64,000 nucleotides of DNA from an uncultured Prevotellaceae bacterium (GTDB lineage: Bacteria > Bacteroidota > Bacteroidia > Bacteroidales > Muribaculaceae). How positions within the stretch are numbered: position 1 is the first letter of the stretch; every line of letters starts with the position of its first letter. This document shows, in pieces, positions 622 to 38,562 of this stretch. The notes below the pieces were generated by a model that ran no database searches, was not told the DNA's origin, and was given only the letters and a program-made list of their open reading frames with translations. The stretch lies in assembly GCA_900320245.1 (NCBI GenBank), contig ONRP01000004.1, forward strand, positions 1 through 64,000. The letters run 5' to 3'. A program made the position numbers and the translations under genes.

Positions 622-1365
622 CTAAAGGATAGGGTAGGGATAGGTAATGTCCCACAGGAACAGGGCGTTGCCGGGCATCGACGTGCCGGCGGCGCAGCGG
701 TCCTTGCGCTCGATGACCTGGCAGAACTCCTCCACGGTCATCTTGTGGCGCCCCACCTCGACCAGGGTGCCGACGATGGCACGCACCATGTTGCGCAGGA
801 AGCGGTCGGCAGTGATCGTGAATACCCACTGGTCGCCCTCTCGCGTCCACTGGGCATGGGTGACACGGCAGTTGTTGGTCTTGACGTCGGTGTGCAGTTT
901 GGAGAACGAGGTGAAGTCGGTGTAATCCAGCAGACGCGCAGCCGCCTCGTTCATCAGGTCGAAGTCGAGGTCGGGAGGACATTTCCAACTCAGCGGGTAG
1001 CGGAACGGGTCCTTACGGGTGACGGCAAAGTACTTGTAGGTGCGGCTCGTGGCGTCAAACCGGGCGTGGGCGTCGTCGTGGACTGCCGCTATGCTGTAGA
1101 CAGCGATGTCGGCAGGCAGTAGGGCATTGAGGCTGTGCACCAGCCGATTGACGTCAGCGATAGGCTGCTCGGTGTCGAAGTGGGCCACCATCAGGTGGGC
1201 GTTCACGCCGGCATCGGTGCGTCCTGCTCCCGTCACGGGCGTGGGCACGCGCAGGAGCGTGGCCATCGCCTCCTCGACGGTCTGCTGTACCGAGGTGTCG
1301 TGGGGTTGCACCTGCCATCCATGGAAGTCCGCCCCCCTAAAGCCCAATCTCATGAAATACCGCAT
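622..1365 (-). CDS. truA: tRNA pseudouridine synthase A
   Basis: A 247-residue protein beginning MRYFMRLGFRGADFHGWQVQ. The motif GAGRTDAGVNA holds the catalytic aspartate (D51), as in TruA, which makes pseudouridine at positions 38-40 of the tRNA anticodon stem-loop. RFLRNMVRAIVGTL and the C-terminal PGNALFLWDITYPYP region are also typical. Length is normal. The start codon lies only 5 bp downstream of the last unit of a heptamer array (1371-1426), so its own promoter, if any, would lie within or beyond that array. A short GC palindrome near 602-616 downstream could be a weak terminator. Confidence 0.96.
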   Translation of the reverse strand: MRYFMRLGFRGADFHGWQVQPHDTSVQQTVEEAMATLLRVPTPVTGAGRTDAGVNAHLMVAHFDTEQPIADVNRLVHSLNALLPADIAVYSIAAVHDDAHARFDATSRTYKYFAVTRKDPFRYPLSWKCPPDLDFDLMNEAAARLLDYTDFTSFSKLHTDVKTNNCRVTHAQWTREGDQWVFTITADRFLRNMVRAIVGTLVEVGRHKMTVEEFCQVIERKDRCAAGTSMPGNALFLWDITYPYPIL

Positions 1366-1370
1366 TTTTT

Positions 1371-1426
1371 TAGTCCCTAGTTCTTAGTCCCTAGTTCTTA
1401 GTCCCTAGTCCCTAGTTTTTAGTCTA
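1371..1426. repeat. Heptamer tandem array, left arm of inverted pair
   Basis: Eight contiguous 7-bp units on the plus strand: TAGTCCC, TAGTTCT, TAGTCCC, TAGTTCT, TAGTCCC, TAGTCCC, TAGTTTT, TAGTCTA. The main unit is the reverse complement of GGGACTA, found in the array at 1834-1873, so the two arrays face each other around the gene at 1447-1806. Confidence 0.92.
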
Positions 1427-1446
1427 CCGTTTTAAGTTATTGGTTT

Positions 1447-1806
1447 CTAGTCATGTATTGAGTTGGAGAGAGCATTTAACATCTTGGCTATTTCTTTAAT
1501 TAGAAGATGAATTGTCATTGTTTGTGAAGTCTCTAAATAATTCAATCTTTCACATAATTCAATTTGGGTTGATAATTCTCCCAGAGAACCCCGAGCCATC
1601 GAAAGAAATCTAATAAACTCTTTAGATGTGATGCGTCCTTGACCCTCTGCTATATTGGATGGAACAGAGATAACAGCCCTGCGAATTTGATCTGATAAAG
1701 CATAGGTTTCTTCTTTGGGCAAGAACTTGACTATCGCATATACTTCAACAGCCAAATCCATTGCTTTTTGCCAAACTATCAAATCTCGGAATTCACTCGA
1801 CCTCAT
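1447..1806 (-). CDS. Four-helix-bundle protein, IVS/S23 family
   Basis: A 119-residue, mostly helical protein with the family hallmarks FRDLIVWQKAMDLAVEVY near the start, YALSDQIRRAVISVPSNIAEG at about residues 55-75 and a central FIRFLSMARGSLGELSTQIE. This family (four helix bundle, S23 ribosomal intervening-sequence protein) includes the ORFs in 23S rRNA intervening sequences and is structurally related to the Avd accessory protein of diversity-generating retroelements. Here it is in neither context: there is no rRNA or reverse transcriptase nearby. It sits between truA and speA, bounded by two inverted heptamer arrays, and its stop codon (TAG, 1447-1449) lies in array-like sequence. The gene is visibly more A+T-rich than its neighbours, which suggests acquisition. 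Its function is unknown; nucleic-acid binding is an inference from the family. Confidence 0.88.
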   Translation of the reverse strand: MRSSEFRDLIVWQKAMDLAVEVYAIVKFLPKEETYALSDQIRRAVISVPSNIAEGQGRITSKEFIRFLSMARGSLGELSTQIELCERLNYLETSQTMTIHLLIKEIAKMLNALSNSIHD

Positions 1807-1833
1807 ATATTGTGAGAATGATTATAATCTAAC

Positions 1834-1870
1834 AACTAGAAACTAGAAACTAGGGACTAGGGACTAGAAA

Positions 1871-1873
<3 letters not shown>
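1834..1873. repeat. Heptamer tandem array, right arm of inverted pair
   Basis: Five 7-bp units plus a partial one: AACTAGA, AACTAGA, AACTAGG, GACTAGG, GACTAGA, AACTA. It contains GGGACTA, the complement of the unit at 1371-1426. The speA stop codon (TAG on the minus strand, 1871-1873) is made by the last unit. Confidence 0.9.
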
Positions 1874-3787
<1,914 letters not shown>

Positions 3788-7404: not shown

Positions 7405-7485
7405 TCCAGTCAGTCCCGTTCCTCCAGTCAGTCCCGTTCCTCCAGTCCGTCCAGCCCGTCCCGTCTATCTCTCCCGTCTTTCCTG
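7405..7485. repeat. Nonamer tandem array
   Basis: Nine contiguous 9-bp units: TCCAGTCAG, TCCCGTTCC, TCCAGTCAG, TCCCGTTCC, TCCAGTCCG, TCCAGCCCG, TCCCGTCTA, TCTCTCCCG, TCTTTCCTG. The first four form two perfect 18-bp repeats. More degenerate copies precede it from about 7305. The units resemble those at 35190-35297. Confidence 0.85.
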
Positions 7486-7556
7486 TCTATTTGCTTGATT
7501 CCCAGCCGTTAATCCCCGTTTCTCAAAAAATCAACCAAAAAAAATCGTTAAAAAAT

Positions 7557-10722: not shown

Positions 10723-10767
10723 CTCTTCCAGTATATCCAGATTATCCAGACACTCCAGATTCTCCAT
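10723..10767. repeat. Nonamer tandem array
   Basis: Five 9-bp units: CTCTTCCAG, TATATCCAG, ATTATCCAG, ACACTCCAG, ATTCTCCAT. The core TCCAG is kept while the first four bases vary. It fills the 49-base gap between the exonuclease stop and the next ATG (10770), so it occupies the expected leader of the permease gene. Confidence 0.85.
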
Positions 10768-11976: not shown

Positions 11977-12873
11977 ATGGACAAGACCCTGATTGTCATC
12001 ACTGGACCCACAGGAGTGGGCAAGACGGCGGCGGCCATCAACCTGGCCCGTCACCTGCATTGCGACATCGTCAACGCCGATTCCCGTCAGATCTATCGCG
12101 GCATCCCCATCTGTACGGCCGCACCCACGCCCGACCAGTTGGCGGCGGTGAGGCATCACTTTGTGGCTTTCAAGGAATTGGAAGAGAGTTACAGCGCGGC
12201 TCAGTTCGAGAGCGACGTCATGGCCCTGCTGCCCGCCTTGTGGCAGCAAGGCGACCATGTCGTGATGTGTGGCGGCTCGATGCTCTATGTCGACGCGGTG
12301 TGCAACGGCATCGACCAGTTGCCCGACATCAGTCCCGAGGTGCGCGCCGCCGTCAAGGAGAAACTGCGCCTCGAGGGGTTGGAAAGCCTGGTCAGGGAAT
12401 TGGAAGGGCTGGACCCGCAGTATGCCGCGACGGTCGACCGCCGCAATACCAGCCGCGTGTGCCATGCCGTGGAAATCTGTCGGCAGGCCGGAGTGCCCTA
12501 TTCGTCGTTGCGCACCGGCACCGCCAAGCAACGTGATTTCAGAATCGTCAAACTCGTCCTCAACATCGAGCGGGAGCGCCTGTTTGACCTCATCAACCGC
12601 CGTGTGGACCAGATGATTGAAGCAGGCTTGGAAGAAGAGGCCCGCTCGGTCTACCACCTGCGCCATCTCAACTCGCTCAACACTGTGGGCATGAAAGAGC
12701 TGTTCGCCATGTTCGACGGCACGATGGACCGCCACACGGCCATCGAGCGCATGAAGAAAAACACACGCCTTTATGCCAAGAAACAACTCACGTGGTACAA
12801 AAGAGACCAGGCCGTCACCTGGGTTTCCCCCGATGACGACCTGATGAACCTTCTTTCAGGTTTTGACTCCTAA
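11977..12873 (+). CDS. miaA: tRNA dimethylallyltransferase
   Basis: 298 residues from the ATG at 11977; the longer frame upstream overlaps the permease gene and is not used. The P-loop GPTGVGKT (residues 10-17) is followed by IVNADSRQIYRGI, GGSMLYVDAV and the DRRNTSRVCHAVEI segment, then LNTVGMKEL near the C-terminus. The enzyme adds the isopentenyl group to A37 of tRNAs that read codons starting with U. The Bacteroidetes protein is often about 300 residues, as here. The TAA stop is the first three bases of a TAACTCC repeat unit. Confidence 0.96.
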   Translation: MDKTLIVITGPTGVGKTAAAINLARHLHCDIVNADSRQIYRGIPICTAAPTPDQLAAVRHHFVAFKELEESYSAAQFESDVMALLPALWQQGDHVVMCGGSMLYVDAVCNGIDQLPDISPEVRAAVKEKLRLEGLESLVRELEGLDPQYAATVDRRNTSRVCHAVEICRQAGVPYSSLRTGTAKQRDFRIVKLVLNIERERLFDLINRRVDQMIEAGLEEEARSVYHLRHLNSLNTVGMKELFAMFDGTMDRHTAIERMKKNTRLYAKKQLTWYKRDQAVTWVSPDDDLMNLLSGFDS

Positions 12874-12909
12874 CTCCTAACTTCTAACTCCTAACTCCTA
12901 ACTATTAAA
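12864..12909. repeat. Heptamer tandem array between convergent genes
   Basis: Units TGACTCC, TAACTCC, TAACTTC, TAACTCC, TAACTCC, TAACTAT run contiguously. The array overlaps the last codons and stop of miaA (12871-12873) and, on the other strand, the stop of the C10 protease (12905-12907). The convergent genes therefore have only 31 bases between their stops, all of it repeat. Confidence 0.92.
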
Positions 12910-22559: not shown

Positions 22560-22590
22560 CAAAGATAGTGAAAGCCGAGAGGAATGGCAA
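22560..22590 (-). promoter_or_regulatory. Promoter of the 21102-22499 gene (conserved-spacer module)
   Basis: Minus-strand TTG (22588-22590), then a 20-bp spacer CCATTCCTCTCGGCTTTCAC, then TATCTTTG (22560-22567). The spacer is nearly the same as those of the promoters at 38536, 57749 and 60315. Confidence 0.8.
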
Positions 22591-22820
22591 GCAAAAAAGC
22601 AATTTTTTTGCTTGAACAATCCCGAGGCGCCTCCTATCTTGCCCGCGCTGCCAAGCGCCTGGGAACGATAGTGAAAGCCGAGAGGAATGGCAAGCAAAAA
22701 AGCAATTTTTTTGCTTGAACAATCCCGAGGCGCCTCCTATCTTGCCCGCGCAGCCAAGCGCCTGGGAACGATAGTGAAAGCCGAGAGGAATGGCAAGCAA
22801 AAAAGCAATTTTTTTGCTTG
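22564..22820. repeat. 103-bp direct tandem repeat, 2.5 copies
   Basis: Copies begin at 22564, 22667 and 22770; the third stops after about 51 bases. The first two differ by a single base noticed by eye (GCGCTGCC versus GCGCAGCC). Each copy carries a hairpin, AAGCAAAAAA with TTTTTTGCTT, next to the promoter spacer. Only the copy nearest the gene keeps an intact TATCTTTG box; in the others the box runs into the repeat junction (TATCGTTC). Confidence 0.92.
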
Positions 22821-27031: not shown

Positions 27032-27073
27032 TCTTTAACCTCTAACCTTTAACCTCTAACCTCTAACCTAGAA
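27032..27073. repeat. Heptamer tandem array
   Basis: Contiguous units TCTTTAA, CCTCTAA, CCTTTAA, CCTCTAA, CCTCTAA, CCTAGAA. The array spans the 45-base gap between the PKD lipoprotein gene and the GHL10 gene and supplies the stop codon at 27068-27070. Confidence 0.9.
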
Positions 27074-28798
27074 CAGATTGGTCAGGCGCGGATTGATGCA
27101 CAAGCCCAGAATCTTGTCCTTGTTGCCGTTGAAGTTGTATACCTTGCCGTCGTTGGGATTGAAGTAGTACAAGCCCGTGGTGTAGGTCTTCTCGGTCGTA
27201 GCGGCGCGGAAGCCGAAGTAGACGTAGTGGGTCTGGGCATCAACAGCGAACTGCGTGGTGTAAACACCCTCGGCGTCGGTCGTGTTGATCGGGTCGGCCT
27301 CCATCGTGATGAAGTTGATGTACTTGTCATAGGTCACCGTGGCGTTCTCGGCTGGGATGGCATATTGGGTGAAGCCCACACCGGGCGTGGTGCCCTTGGT
27401 CATCCACACATACAGGTAGCCCAGGTCCTCGTCCAGCGTGAAGGCGCGGGGCTGAGTGGTCTCGAGCACGATGGGATGGGGGATGGGCACGCCGGTACCG
27501 GTCTTGCCGATGTCACTCGGCCGGAAGCGGTAGATACCGTTGCCCGAGTAGTTCTTGCCCCACCAGAACATGCCGGTGCGGTCAAGATACAGGCCCGTGT
27601 GGATGGCACCGTAGGCGATGCCCTGGCCATAGTAACTCAACTGATTGTTGACTACGTAGTAGCCGGCGGTGCTGTTGAAGTTGGTCTGCTCGGTCTCACC
27701 TCGTGCACTGAGCGGCATGGTGCGTATACCCGTGTTGCGGTCGGTGTAGTAGAGCGTGGTGCCGTCGGTGCAGCCCTGGAACGGGTCGTTGAAGGCGGGA
27801 CCGCCCACGTTGGTGACCATCACGTTGGTGGTCAAGCCGTCGGCGCTCATCACGGTAATCTTGCCGTCGCCCAGGTTGCCGGCCTCGTCATTGATGTAGT
27901 AGTACTGCTTGCCGCAGTCCAGGATATAGACGTTGTCCTGTTCGATGGTGGCGCTGTCGGTCACCGTCTTCTCGGTGGCGAACACCAGCGTGGTGGGCAT
28001 GTTACCCGAACTTACGCCCATGTCGAACGGCAGGTTCTTGGTGCCGGCGGGCAGTTGTGCGAGGTCTACCAGTTTCACGGCCATGATGTTGCCGCCCTGG
28101 GTTGCGTAGTAGAGCGTGGGAGCGGGAATCGACGAACCCACCTGCACGTTGACGTAACTATCCTCCAGGCGGCGGTTCTCGCCGTTGATGTCAAACCACG
28201 TCTGCAGCGTGATGCGCTGCGAACCGATGTTGCTGAAGGTCAACTTGCCGGGGTTGTCAATCGTGCCGTCAGCGTGGCTGTAGCCCTCAAAGGTCGAGAT
28301 GATGTTGCCCTGGCTGTCACGCGTGCCGTCGGGGAACGTCCACACATATTTGCAGGTCAGGTTCTCGGGGTTGGGCAACTCGATGTCGAGGCTCACGTTC
28401 ACGTCGTTGATGACCACGGGCGTCGCGCTCTGCTCGGCAACGCTCAGCAGCGGGGCGATGTCATAGATGAGCAGCGGATAGGTGCGGCTGCCCACACCGT
28501 CGACGGTCAGCGTCACCTGATAGATGCCCGCTGTGGCATACTTGTGCGAGGGATTCATCTCGGTCGATGTGGTGCCGTCGCCGAAGTCCCACATCACGCT
28601 TCCCGACTTGGACGAGGTGTTGGTGAACTCGATGGTCGACACCACATAGAAGTCGAGACCATAGCGGTCGTCATCCACCCGATAGGTGAAATCCACATCC
28701 TTGGTGGGGAAGTTGTCATAGTCGGGCGTCTTATCGATACACGACACCACCATCATCACCATCACAAGAATGAATGCTATTTTATTGAATGTCTTCAT
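27068..28798 (-). CDS. PKD-domain surface lipoprotein with propeller-like C-terminus
   Basis: 576 residues. Lipoprotein signal with lipobox cysteine at about residue 20 (MMVVSC). A PKD-like domain (about 35-115) is recognised from VMWDFGDGTTSTEMNPSHKY and GIYQVTLTVDG, and a second Ig/PKD-like domain runs to about 215 (YVWTFPDGT). The remaining 350 residues have repeating short beta segments (APTLYYATQGGN, NVYILDCGKQYYYIN, TTLYYTDRNTGI, HYVYFGFRA, GLYYFNPNDGKVYNF), suggesting a beta-propeller. PKD-like lipoproteins are common partners of SusC/SusD and probably help to bind the glycan or peptide at the cell surface. Fourth gene of the SusCD operon. Confidence 0.85.
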   Translation of the reverse strand: MKTFNKIAFILVMVMMVVSCIDKTPDYDNFPTKDVDFTYRVDDDRYGLDFYVVSTIEFTNTSSKSGSVMWDFGDGTTSTEMNPSHKYATAGIYQVTLTVDGVGSRTYPLLIYDIAPLLSVAEQSATPVVINDVNVSLDIELPNPENLTCKYVWTFPDGTRDSQGNIISTFEGYSHADGTIDNPGKLTFSNIGSQRITLQTWFDINGENRRLEDSYVNVQVGSSIPAPTLYYATQGGNIMAVKLVDLAQLPAGTKNLPFDMGVSSGNMPTTLVFATEKTVTDSATIEQDNVYILDCGKQYYYINDEAGNLGDGKITVMSADGLTTNVMVTNVGGPAFNDPFQGCTDGTTLYYTDRNTGIRTMPLSARGETEQTNFNSTAGYYVVNNQLSYYGQGIAYGAIHTGLYLDRTGMFWWGKNYSGNGIYRFRPSDIGKTGTGVPIPHPIVLETTQPRAFTLDEDLGYLYVWMTKGTTPGVGFTQYAIPAENATVTYDKYINFITMEADPINTTDAEGVYTTQFAVDAQTHYVYFGFRAATTEKTYTTGLYYFNPNDGKVYNFNGNKDKILGLCINPRLTNLF

Positions 28799-28816
28799 CT
28801 TTTTTCAATTTTCAGC

Positions 28817-28872
28817 GTTAACTATTAACTGTCAACTATTAACTGTTAACTGTTAACTGTTAACTAGTTAAG
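28817..28872. repeat. Heptamer tandem array
   Basis: Eight contiguous units: GTTAACT, ATTAACT, GTCAACT, ATTAACT, GTTAACT, GTTAACT, GTTAACT, AGTTAAG. It fills the 65-base gap between two lipoprotein genes and makes the stop codon of the upstream one (28864-28866). Confidence 0.92.
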
Positions 28873-29913: not shown

Positions 29914-29957
29914 TGTCAACTATTATCTGTTATCTATTAACTGTTAACTATTAACTA
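29914..29957. repeat. Heptamer tandem array
   Basis: Units TGTCAAC, TATTATC, TGTTATC, TATTAAC, TGTTAAC, TATTAAC in succession. It occupies the gap between susD and the next lipoprotein gene and includes the stop of the susD gene (29955-29957). The unit is related to that at 28817-28872. Confidence 0.9.
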
Positions 29958-35189: not shown

Positions 35190-35297
35190 AAGCAATCCAG
35201 CCCCTCCAATAAGTCTAATAAGTCTAATAAGTCTGATAAGTCTGATAAGTCCAGTCCGTCCAGCCTCTCCAGTATGTCCAGTCCGTCCAGCCCGTCC
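35190..35297. repeat. Nonamer tandem array
   Basis: About twelve 9-bp units: AAGCAATCC, AGCCCCTCC, three AATAAGTCT, GATAAGTCT, GATAAGTCC, AGTCCGTCC, AGCCTCTCC, AGTATGTCC, AGTCCGTCC, AGCCCGTCC. It changes gradually from an A+T-rich unit to a C-rich one while keeping the 9-bp phase. It ends directly at the GH20 stop codon. Confidence 0.9.
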
Positions 35298-38380: not shown

Positions 38381-38562
38381 TCCTTGGGTAAGATAGGCTG
38401 TGGTTCGGGAATGCAAGAAAAATCGCATTTTTTCTTGCTATTCCGCTCACCTTGCACTATCATTCCCTGCGGAGGTATGTATCCTTGGGTAAGATAGGCT
38501 GCGGTTCGGGAATGCAAGAAAAATCGCATTTTTTCTTGCTATTCCGCTCACCTTGCACTATC
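38381..38562. repeat. Tandem repeat, two 81-bp copies at 101-bp spacing
   Basis: Copies at 38381-38461 and 38482-38562 are almost identical (one G/T difference seen). Each has TTCGGGAATGCAAG, a hairpin (GCAAGAAAAA with TTTTTCTTGC), and the promoter spacer ending CTTGCAC. The first copy runs from TATC into ATTC and so lacks a -7 box; the second has TATCTTTG. Confidence 0.92.

Follow-up and report, generated by a model that had tools for sequence, protein, structure and literature searches.

Orphan IVS/S23-type four-helix-bundle genes between inverted heptamer arrays: a candidate two-part selfish element in Bacteroidales and other bacteria

The 64,000-nt stretch of DNA analysed here (the window; positions 1 to 64,000 of contig ONRP01000004.1 from an uncultured Prevotellaceae bacterium) contains, between truA and speA, a small gene enclosed by two arrays of 7-nt tandem repeats, and the locus raises the question of whether gene and arrays belong together as a mobile unit. 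The features are collected in Table 1. The left arm is composed of four copies of TAGTCCC, two of TAGTTCT and one each of TAGTTTT and TAGTCTA, while the right array, complementary and inverted relative to the left one, consists of five ACTAGAA/ACTAGGG units (1835-1869) followed by ACTATTT at 1870. An earlier note on this DNA had described eight TAGTCCC/TAGTTCT units facing five complementary ones, which was confirmed as eight TAGTNNN and five ACTAGNN heptamers. The best period-7 score in the region 1200-2100 is 24.8, the maximum among 1000 dinucleotide shuffles being 9.8; the arrays are far above chance. The enclosed gene is, as the same note had suggested, A+T-rich (63% in the ORF, 44% in the window) and of IVS/S23 type: its product is a full-length member of PF05635 (140.6 bits, cut-off 33.8, profile positions 1-106 of 106) and matches TIGR02436 (134.4 bits, cut-off 24, profile positions 1-108 of 109). 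The further claim that the arrays form the stop codons of both genes holds for speA, whose TAG (1871-1873) lies inside the last unit of the right array, and only loosely for the IVS gene, whose TAG (1447-1449) overlaps a stray unit ~20 nt past the main left array.

Table 1. Cassette, neighbouring host genes and solo heptamer arrays in the window
Feature	Position	Strand	Remarks
truA, downstream host gene	622..1365	-	TIGR00071, 168.2 bits (cut-off 142.85)
Left arm, downstream of the IVS gene	1371..1426	.	Eight in-register tandem TAGTNNN heptamers
Degenerate continuation of the left array	1427..1454	.	One stray TAGT unit at 1448
IVS/S23-type four-helix-bundle gene	1447..1806	-	119 aa; PF05635 / TIGR02436
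Right arm, upstream of the IVS gene	1829..1873	.	Inverted heptamers ACTAGAA/ACTAGGG
speA, upstream host gene	1871..3787	-	TIGR01273, 769.8 bits (cut-off 624.1)
Solo array ACTCCTA	12866..12908	.	Between convergent ORFs
Solo array TAACCTC/TAACCTT	27033..27074	.	At gene junction
Solo array GTTAACT/ATTAACT	28802..28865	.	At gene junction
Solo array TATTAAC/TGTTAAC	29920..29957	.	At gene junction

The genome of the window (G000; 3.02 Mb in 73 contigs) contains three strong IVS genes, all of them between inverted heptamer arrays and each with a heptamer of its own: TAGTCCC in the window, GTTTAGA in L002 and GAGATAA in L003. Pieces of TAGTCCC-type arrays are present on other contigs of this genome (e.g., C19, C55, and C57), on which no strong IVS gene was found. 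Three further ORFs of 221-255 aa (L004-L006) gave weak PF05635 matches (25-31 bits) and have no heptamer arrays; they probably belong to another family. The window also holds repeats of other kinds. Nonamer arrays at 7405-7488, 10727-10766 and 35205-35297, of the types TCCAGTCAG, TCCAGATTA, and AATAAGTCT, form a second class, and tandem repeats of 103 bp (22564-22820) and 101 bp (38381-38562) match at 98-99%, each unit holding an A/T-run with the potential to fold into a hairpin.

IVS matches above the cut-off were found in 51 of the 61 genomes of the genus. From the best 120 matches listed (at least 89.4 bits), 112 loci were used, after exclusion of one match inside an already covered locus (L037), six near a low contig end and one with an internal stop; fifteen further listed matches of 72-89 bits were left out. 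An array was called at a period-7 score of at least 15 within ~300 nt of the IVS gene. Such arrays were found upstream at 82 loci, downstream at 75, on both sides at 66 and on either side at 91; the remaining 21 of the 112 lack a strong array altogether, and at one site found in five genomes (L010, L013, L014, L019, and L057) no array reaches a score of 11. When periods 4-15 were scanned, 7 and its multiple 14 alone stood out. Control genes (300) came from 20 stretches of 20 kb drawn from contigs with an IVS gene, away from that gene, and were called as longest ORFs, not by a trained gene finder; 13 have arrays upstream, 21 downstream and five on both sides.

Arrays could be passive products of host slippage, IVS genes being merely located in array-rich spacers. 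Heptamer arrays are indeed not rare in spacers of the genus (17 of 222), and the number of units varies widely, as expected of slippage. However, IVS genes have two-sided arrays ~35 times as often as control genes do (66/112 vs 5/300; Fisher 1e-39). Moreover, the arms were more similar in inverted than in direct orientation at 82 of the 83 loci where both could be compared, the sole exception (L020) having extra upstream arrays; by alignment score, inverted exceeded direct at 105 of 110 loci. The excess of inverted 7-bp arrays near IVS genes that the earlier note had put forward as a check was therefore found, and the association between the arms and the gene is solid. In the seven control genes with two-sided arrays inverted similarity was 0.32-0.54, exceeding direct similarity in one. 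Insertion of the gene into a pre-existing array was rejected, as direct flanks would be expected from it. Two loci below the threshold for the 83 (L074 and L093) have loosely periodic purine-rich arrays that look direct on both sides. Only ten of the 112 loci have their own inverted pair above the 99% level of upstream/downstream pairings from other loci, which we attribute to the similarity of heptamers between different loci. The shorter arm has a median length of 33 nt and measures 28-35 nt at 39 of the 66 loci. On the coding strand the arms have a constant polarity: the upstream arm is AG-rich in 67 cases vs 6 (9 ties) and the downstream arm CT-rich in 65 vs 3 (7 ties).

The 112 loci represent 25 sites common to several genomes and 34 single sites. 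At several of the common sites the heptamer is wholly different between species, the two arms being concordant within each; one site, for instance, carries three heptamers (GTGGAAG in L021, CGTTTATC in L058, and ATCGGGG in L076). Over 101 same-site pairs, which are non-independent, heptamer similarity correlated with IVS gene identity (rho 0.82) and not with flank identity (0.04), gene and flank identity being themselves unrelated (0.07). With one gene taken from each of 46 sites, heptamer similarity and protein identity gave a Mantel r of 0.46, with none of 2000 permutations as high, and heptamer similarity rose from 0.49 at protein identities below 20% to 0.82 at 70% and above. One heptamer per genome was considered as a simpler rule and dropped: a shared genome adds little beyond protein identity. 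These data show that the arms and the gene form a unit, the heptamer tracking the protein rather than the flanking DNA, which again speaks against passive slippage. The IVS genes had dN/dS values of 0.05-0.15 in 9 of 13 pairs, those for which it could be computed, and we count this as selection on the protein; one pair (L071/L082) has amino-acid changes and no synonymous ones. At L021 and L076, near-perfect palindromes just outside the arms are inverted copies of the adjacent host gene's end (e.g., GAGTAAAAACGCCATGGCGTTTTTACTC) and vary between species together with the host letters; they look like products of fold-back copying or bidirectional terminators.

One cassette was found at two places. 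L118 (genome G036) and L120 (genome G035) share 494 nt at 94% identity in unrelated surroundings, and the match runs between the outer ends of two arms, the 32-nt upstream arm and its exact inverted copy. At L118 another array follows the cassette, as though insertion had taken place next to an array already present. Both sites are occupied by IVS cassettes in other genomes as well, and gene conversion between resident cassettes could take the place of transposition here. Two more pairs of cassettes at different sites exceed 80% identity. The loci compared showed neither a target-site duplication nor an excision product, and no clean empty site was seen among them, the spacers of relatives mostly holding other repeats. 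The L143 region was compared with its counterparts in seven relatives but, being repetitive itself, yielded no clean boundary of an insertion; in the one solo-array spacer aligned with three relatives (L088) the array is shorter or missing, within a complex alignment.

The truA-speA spacer itself was followed in relatives. The query matched in 58 genomes, and four of the 20 loci read (L036-L039) have an IVS insert. Of the 16 gene-free spacers, 15 have no period-7 array (scores 2-4.8). The remaining one (L054, genome G043) has a short inverted pair, TAGTTTTTAGTCC..GGACTTAAAAAACTA, of about two heptamers per side (score 10.2). Retention of the arrays where the gene is absent, which the earlier note had named as evidence against a unit, was thus seen in one spacer of 16, and two readings of it are possible: a remnant of a cassette after gene loss, or a gene-free hairpin or miniature form. 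Other repeats were recognised by eye in 14 of the 16 gene-free spacers (L040-L055), namely nonamer TCTAGA arrays in seven and octamer hairpins of the form CACGCTAAGACGCAAAGGCGCTAAG...CTTAGCGACTTAGCGTGAG in another seven, L043 having neither; these are possibly further repeat elements with partners of their own. No clean empty site was present among the 16.

Heptamer arrays without an adjoining IVS gene are also dispersed through these genomes. In sampled sequence of the genus, arms of IVS genes excluded, 76 of 78 solo arrays are intergenic, and 53 solos are closer to the arms of their own genome than to those of other genomes (0.67 vs 0.58, p 1e-4). In sampled stretches array density followed the presence of the gene, kinship between the genomes being ignored in these counts: 18 arrays per 400 kb in IVS-bearing genomes, 3 per 364 kb in four genomes with weak IVS matches only, and none in the 359 kb sampled from six genomes that gave no IVS match, or 3 per 723 kb for these ten relatives lacking a strong IVS gene; one genome (G052) has two arrays and no IVS gene that could be found. 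In complete genomes from other families of the phylum, six with IVS genes had 17 arrays of 7-8 nt units per 400 kb when the threshold was lowered, against none in four without (5 vs 0 per 400 kb at the first threshold, kinship again ignored). Part of this co-occurrence is phylogeny, related genomes sharing both repeats and genes. The lack of any array in the six IVS-free genomes nevertheless counts against slippage as a passive host process, and taken together with the two-sided excess and the tracking of the protein makes that explanation very unlikely.

Particular heptamers were also traced. TTTAGRG arrays are present in 30 of the 61 genomes, all of which have a strong IVS gene; the ten without one lack these arrays (Fisher 8e-4); six genomes (G006, G014, G021, G029, G046, and G048) have them with no matching-armed IVS gene among the loci read. 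At least five array hits were found in 11 of the 15 genomes with a GTTTAG-armed gene, a list compiled by hand, vs 6 of the 46 others (p 2.5e-5). GATCGGG arrays are limited to four of the 61 genomes (75, 42, 36, and 2 overlapping hits). In G041 such arms enclose an IVS gene; in G044 and G049 the arrays are present, the common IVS site has other arms, and none of the IVS genes read has matching ones. The hit counts for TTTAGRG and GATCGGG refer to pattern positions that may overlap, arms of the elements themselves being counted too, so that small ones (G017, G022, G051, and G057) may partly represent arms.

The arrays might act in RNA: the arms would pair in the transcript, as those of 23S rRNA IVSs do, the protein would bind this RNA to regulate or protect it, and the solos would be regulatory sites in other messages. 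The family owes its name to 23S rRNA intervening sequences, the arms could make a long stem, their polarity is fixed relative to the gene, and translational roles have been proposed for TAACTGA heptamers (PMC4679880, in the part available). Nevertheless, solo arrays between co-directional genes show no sense/antisense preference (22 vs 24, 4 ties), one cassette occupies two unrelated sites, and pairing alone leaves the joint change of all units on both sides between species unexplained. We regard action in RNA as unlikely, though the least improbable of the alternatives. In Rfam scans of 11 loci the arms matched no known RNA family, a single tRNA in L002 excepted, and there was no rRNA in the 3.3-kb locus L001, where the gene sits between truA and speA and not in 23S rRNA.

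A different transposase, e.g., a Y1 enzyme of the IS200/RAYT type, could move the arrays, the IVS gene being a passenger or a target. Y1_Tnp matches were found in 55 of the 61 genomes of the genus; among the other six, five also lack a strong IVS gene. However, G013, G060, and G011 are Y1-positive, have no strong IVS gene and contained no array in 100, 160, and 69 kb, respectively; G057 has no Y1 match and yet possesses armed IVS genes and solo arrays; and in the array-rich G036 the Y1 matches are weak only (best E 1e-5). A Y1 transposase as the sole mover is unlikely, and we would give the whole explanation only a slim chance. The parting of Y1 genes and arrays in some genomes points instead to a process at the DNA level that leans on host replication or repair.

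Pfam and NCBIfam scans revealed no transposase family in the window protein, and the gene between the arms has no Y1 match. To our knowledge, the IVS family has no known nuclease motif. The solved structures of relatives, 2gsc and 2rld, have five chains each, which we take to be a pentamer in solution. In the records examined, the genes are mostly annotated as 'four helix bundle protein' or 'S23 ribosomal protein'. A function in defence (no PADLOC match) and carriage by phages (no match among 50,697 phage records) were considered and set aside.

The Avd protein of diversity-generating retroelements (DGR) is likewise a pentamer. An Avd-like helper role, with cassettes retro-copied by a DGR-type or other reverse transcriptase, would agree with the distant kinship to Avd: the fold is homologous, with similarity between 4DWL and 2GSC (PMC10053308, as far as accessible), and the window protein matches the profiles DivGenRetAVD (40 bits, cut-off 80) and bAvd (32.6 bits, cut-off 40), both below threshold. 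RVT_1 matches are present in 23 of the 61 genomes of the genus. Nevertheless, no reverse transcriptase (PF00078) was matched in the window genome, a 90% complete assembly, nor in the array-rich genomes G020, G023, G035, and G036, and retro-copying appears highly improbable, the weakest candidate of all. The lack of an orientation preference among solos, together with array-rich genomes that have no recognised reverse transcriptase, argues for a DNA-level process.

The layout is not limited to the genus; it recurs in Clostridia, Chloroflexi, Treponema, and cyanobacterial plasmids. By alignment score, inverted exceeded direct at 23 of 29 phylum-wide loci (2 ties) and at 43 of 50 distant ones (1 tie), the latter mostly from Clostridia, Selenomonadaceae, Chloroflexi, and other groups; the own pair was above the 99% level of random pairings at 11 of the 29 and 3 of the 50. 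The distant set was derived from 80 loci, of which 27 likely to be from the window's own group (L267-L290, L292, L295, and L296) were dropped and 50 of the remaining 53 had enough flank. Outside the genus the array units are of 7 or 8 nt. In one genome (G093, with 14 IVS matches), two loci (L381-L382) have gene-free, inverted-looking pairs of 7-/8-nt arrays with loops of ~14-27 nt, resembling REPINs.

Finished plasmids, mostly cyanobacterial, were read in 16 of 32 records. Eight of the 16 loci have inverted arms (score 14.5-31.5), one is ambiguous (Gemmatirosa), three have a short partner only, two have no inverted partner and two look direct (Pseudanabaena galeata and Nostoc HK-01). Examples of the arms are GGGAGTA in Nostoc edaphicum, GGGAACA in Nostoc sp. 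C052, and GGTGACA in Anabaena sp. 90, the last between cas6 and cas4. The Nostoc edaphicum plasmid has a second inverted pair, GGGAACA, ~400 nt apart around another four-helix-bundle gene (two matches were already listed for this record, and the second gene is not a blind prediction). A closely spaced GGGAGTA pair lies within an annotated DUF4351 gene of the same plasmid. Since finished plasmids show the layout, the concern that it is an assembly artefact of metagenome bins is answered. On three cyanobacterial plasmids (L347, L355, and L356) the IVS gene lies among CRISPR-associated genes, twice between cas6 and cas4 and once between cas10 and a cmr3-family gene; the 23S rRNA IVP appears in a figure of genes associated with CRISPR adaptation modules (PMC10910872, consulted in part), and such plasmid genes are a possible source of the IVP-CRISPR links in the literature.

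Several known systems share parts of this layout. As in REP/RAYT systems, a gene lies beside inverted copies of its own repeat, there are many intergenic solos, and several repeat families occur per genome; the earlier note's comparison with RAYT and REP stands as an analogy, based on cognate inverted arms, dispersed solos, gene co-occurrence and protein-repeat co-variation. The heptamers vary between lineages far more than REP tags. Further differences are that the IVS protein is a four-helix bundle and not a Y1 tyrosine transposase, the gene between the arms having no Y1 match, and that the IVS-associated repeat is a 7-8 nt tandem array. Compared with REPINs (features from PMC3116915, in its accessible part), gene-free inverted pairs are present here too (downstream of the IVS gene in L106, in G093, and in L054). 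The 23S rRNA intervening sequences with an IVP/S23 ORF have the identical protein family, whereas the cassettes lie outside rRNA, their arms are heptamer tandems and solo arms are dispersed. As in the cassettes, the gene of rRNA IVSs lies between inverted repeats. Heptameric short tandem repeats (STRR) of cyanobacteria have a literature from 1990 onward, and the IVS-associated arrays are of STRR type, having 7-nt tandem units, an intergenic location and many copies per genome.

XCC0516, an IVS protein with a solved structure and an XCC locus name, presumably comes from the same Xanthomonas strain (ATCC 33913) that was used in a study of GGGAATC heptamers. In Xanthomonas campestris ATCC 33913 these are mostly intergenic, prefer four units and form 70 close convergent pairs, G-quadruplexes being stressed in the available part of that paper (PMC4692102). 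TAACTGA heptamers occur in Beggiatoaceae, cyanobacteria, and Bacteroidetes, and the accessible text on them floats a repeat-binding protein as a mobile element, naming none, and refers to a 2007 survey of 7-nt repeat over-abundance that suggested polymerase slippage (PMC4679880). The explanations discussed for heptamers in the available portions of both papers are G-quadruplexes, translational control and polymerase slippage; in contrast to the cassettes, no protein partner of the Xanthomonas or Beggiatoaceae heptamers is named there (PMC4692102, PMC4679880). Our literature search, which fell short of most subscription papers and preprints, found no report tying IVS-family genes to heptamer arrays.

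The likely explanation, judging from the comparisons above, is a two-part selfish element like REP/RAYT, whose pentameric four-helix-bundle protein would recognise and spread its own heptamer arms. The mobile cassette would measure ~450-500 bp and consist of the IVS gene and two inverted arms, each of ~4-8 lineage-specific heptamers. The protein, pentameric in solved relatives, would bind its own heptamer array and bridge both arms; one pentamer over four to five heptamers would, as a conjecture, fit the arm lengths. We infer that mobilisation depends on the IVS protein, which may promote the copying of arms or complete cassettes to further intergenic positions, as proposed for RAYT and REP. 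The substrate would be DNA, probably in the form of single strands that replication exposes, and, because the family has no known nuclease motif, cutting and joining may be borrowed from host replication or repair. In a broader sense, we lean slightly towards the view that orphan IVS/S23 proteins drive the heptanucleotide (and octanucleotide) tandem repeats of bacteria, as widespread selfish DNA with no recognisable transposase.

Tandem repeats of 7 nt have been reported to be over-abundant in bacteria with no accepted cause; with a matching protein partner, the question can be put to a direct test. If true, the explanation would account for the old excess of such repeats in cyanobacteria, Bacteroidota, Clostridia, and Xanthomonas, would give the IVS/S23 family a role, and would extend mobile DNA to a type in which the protein is not a known nuclease. 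Incidental findings, such as IVS genes between cas genes, may be explained by it as well.
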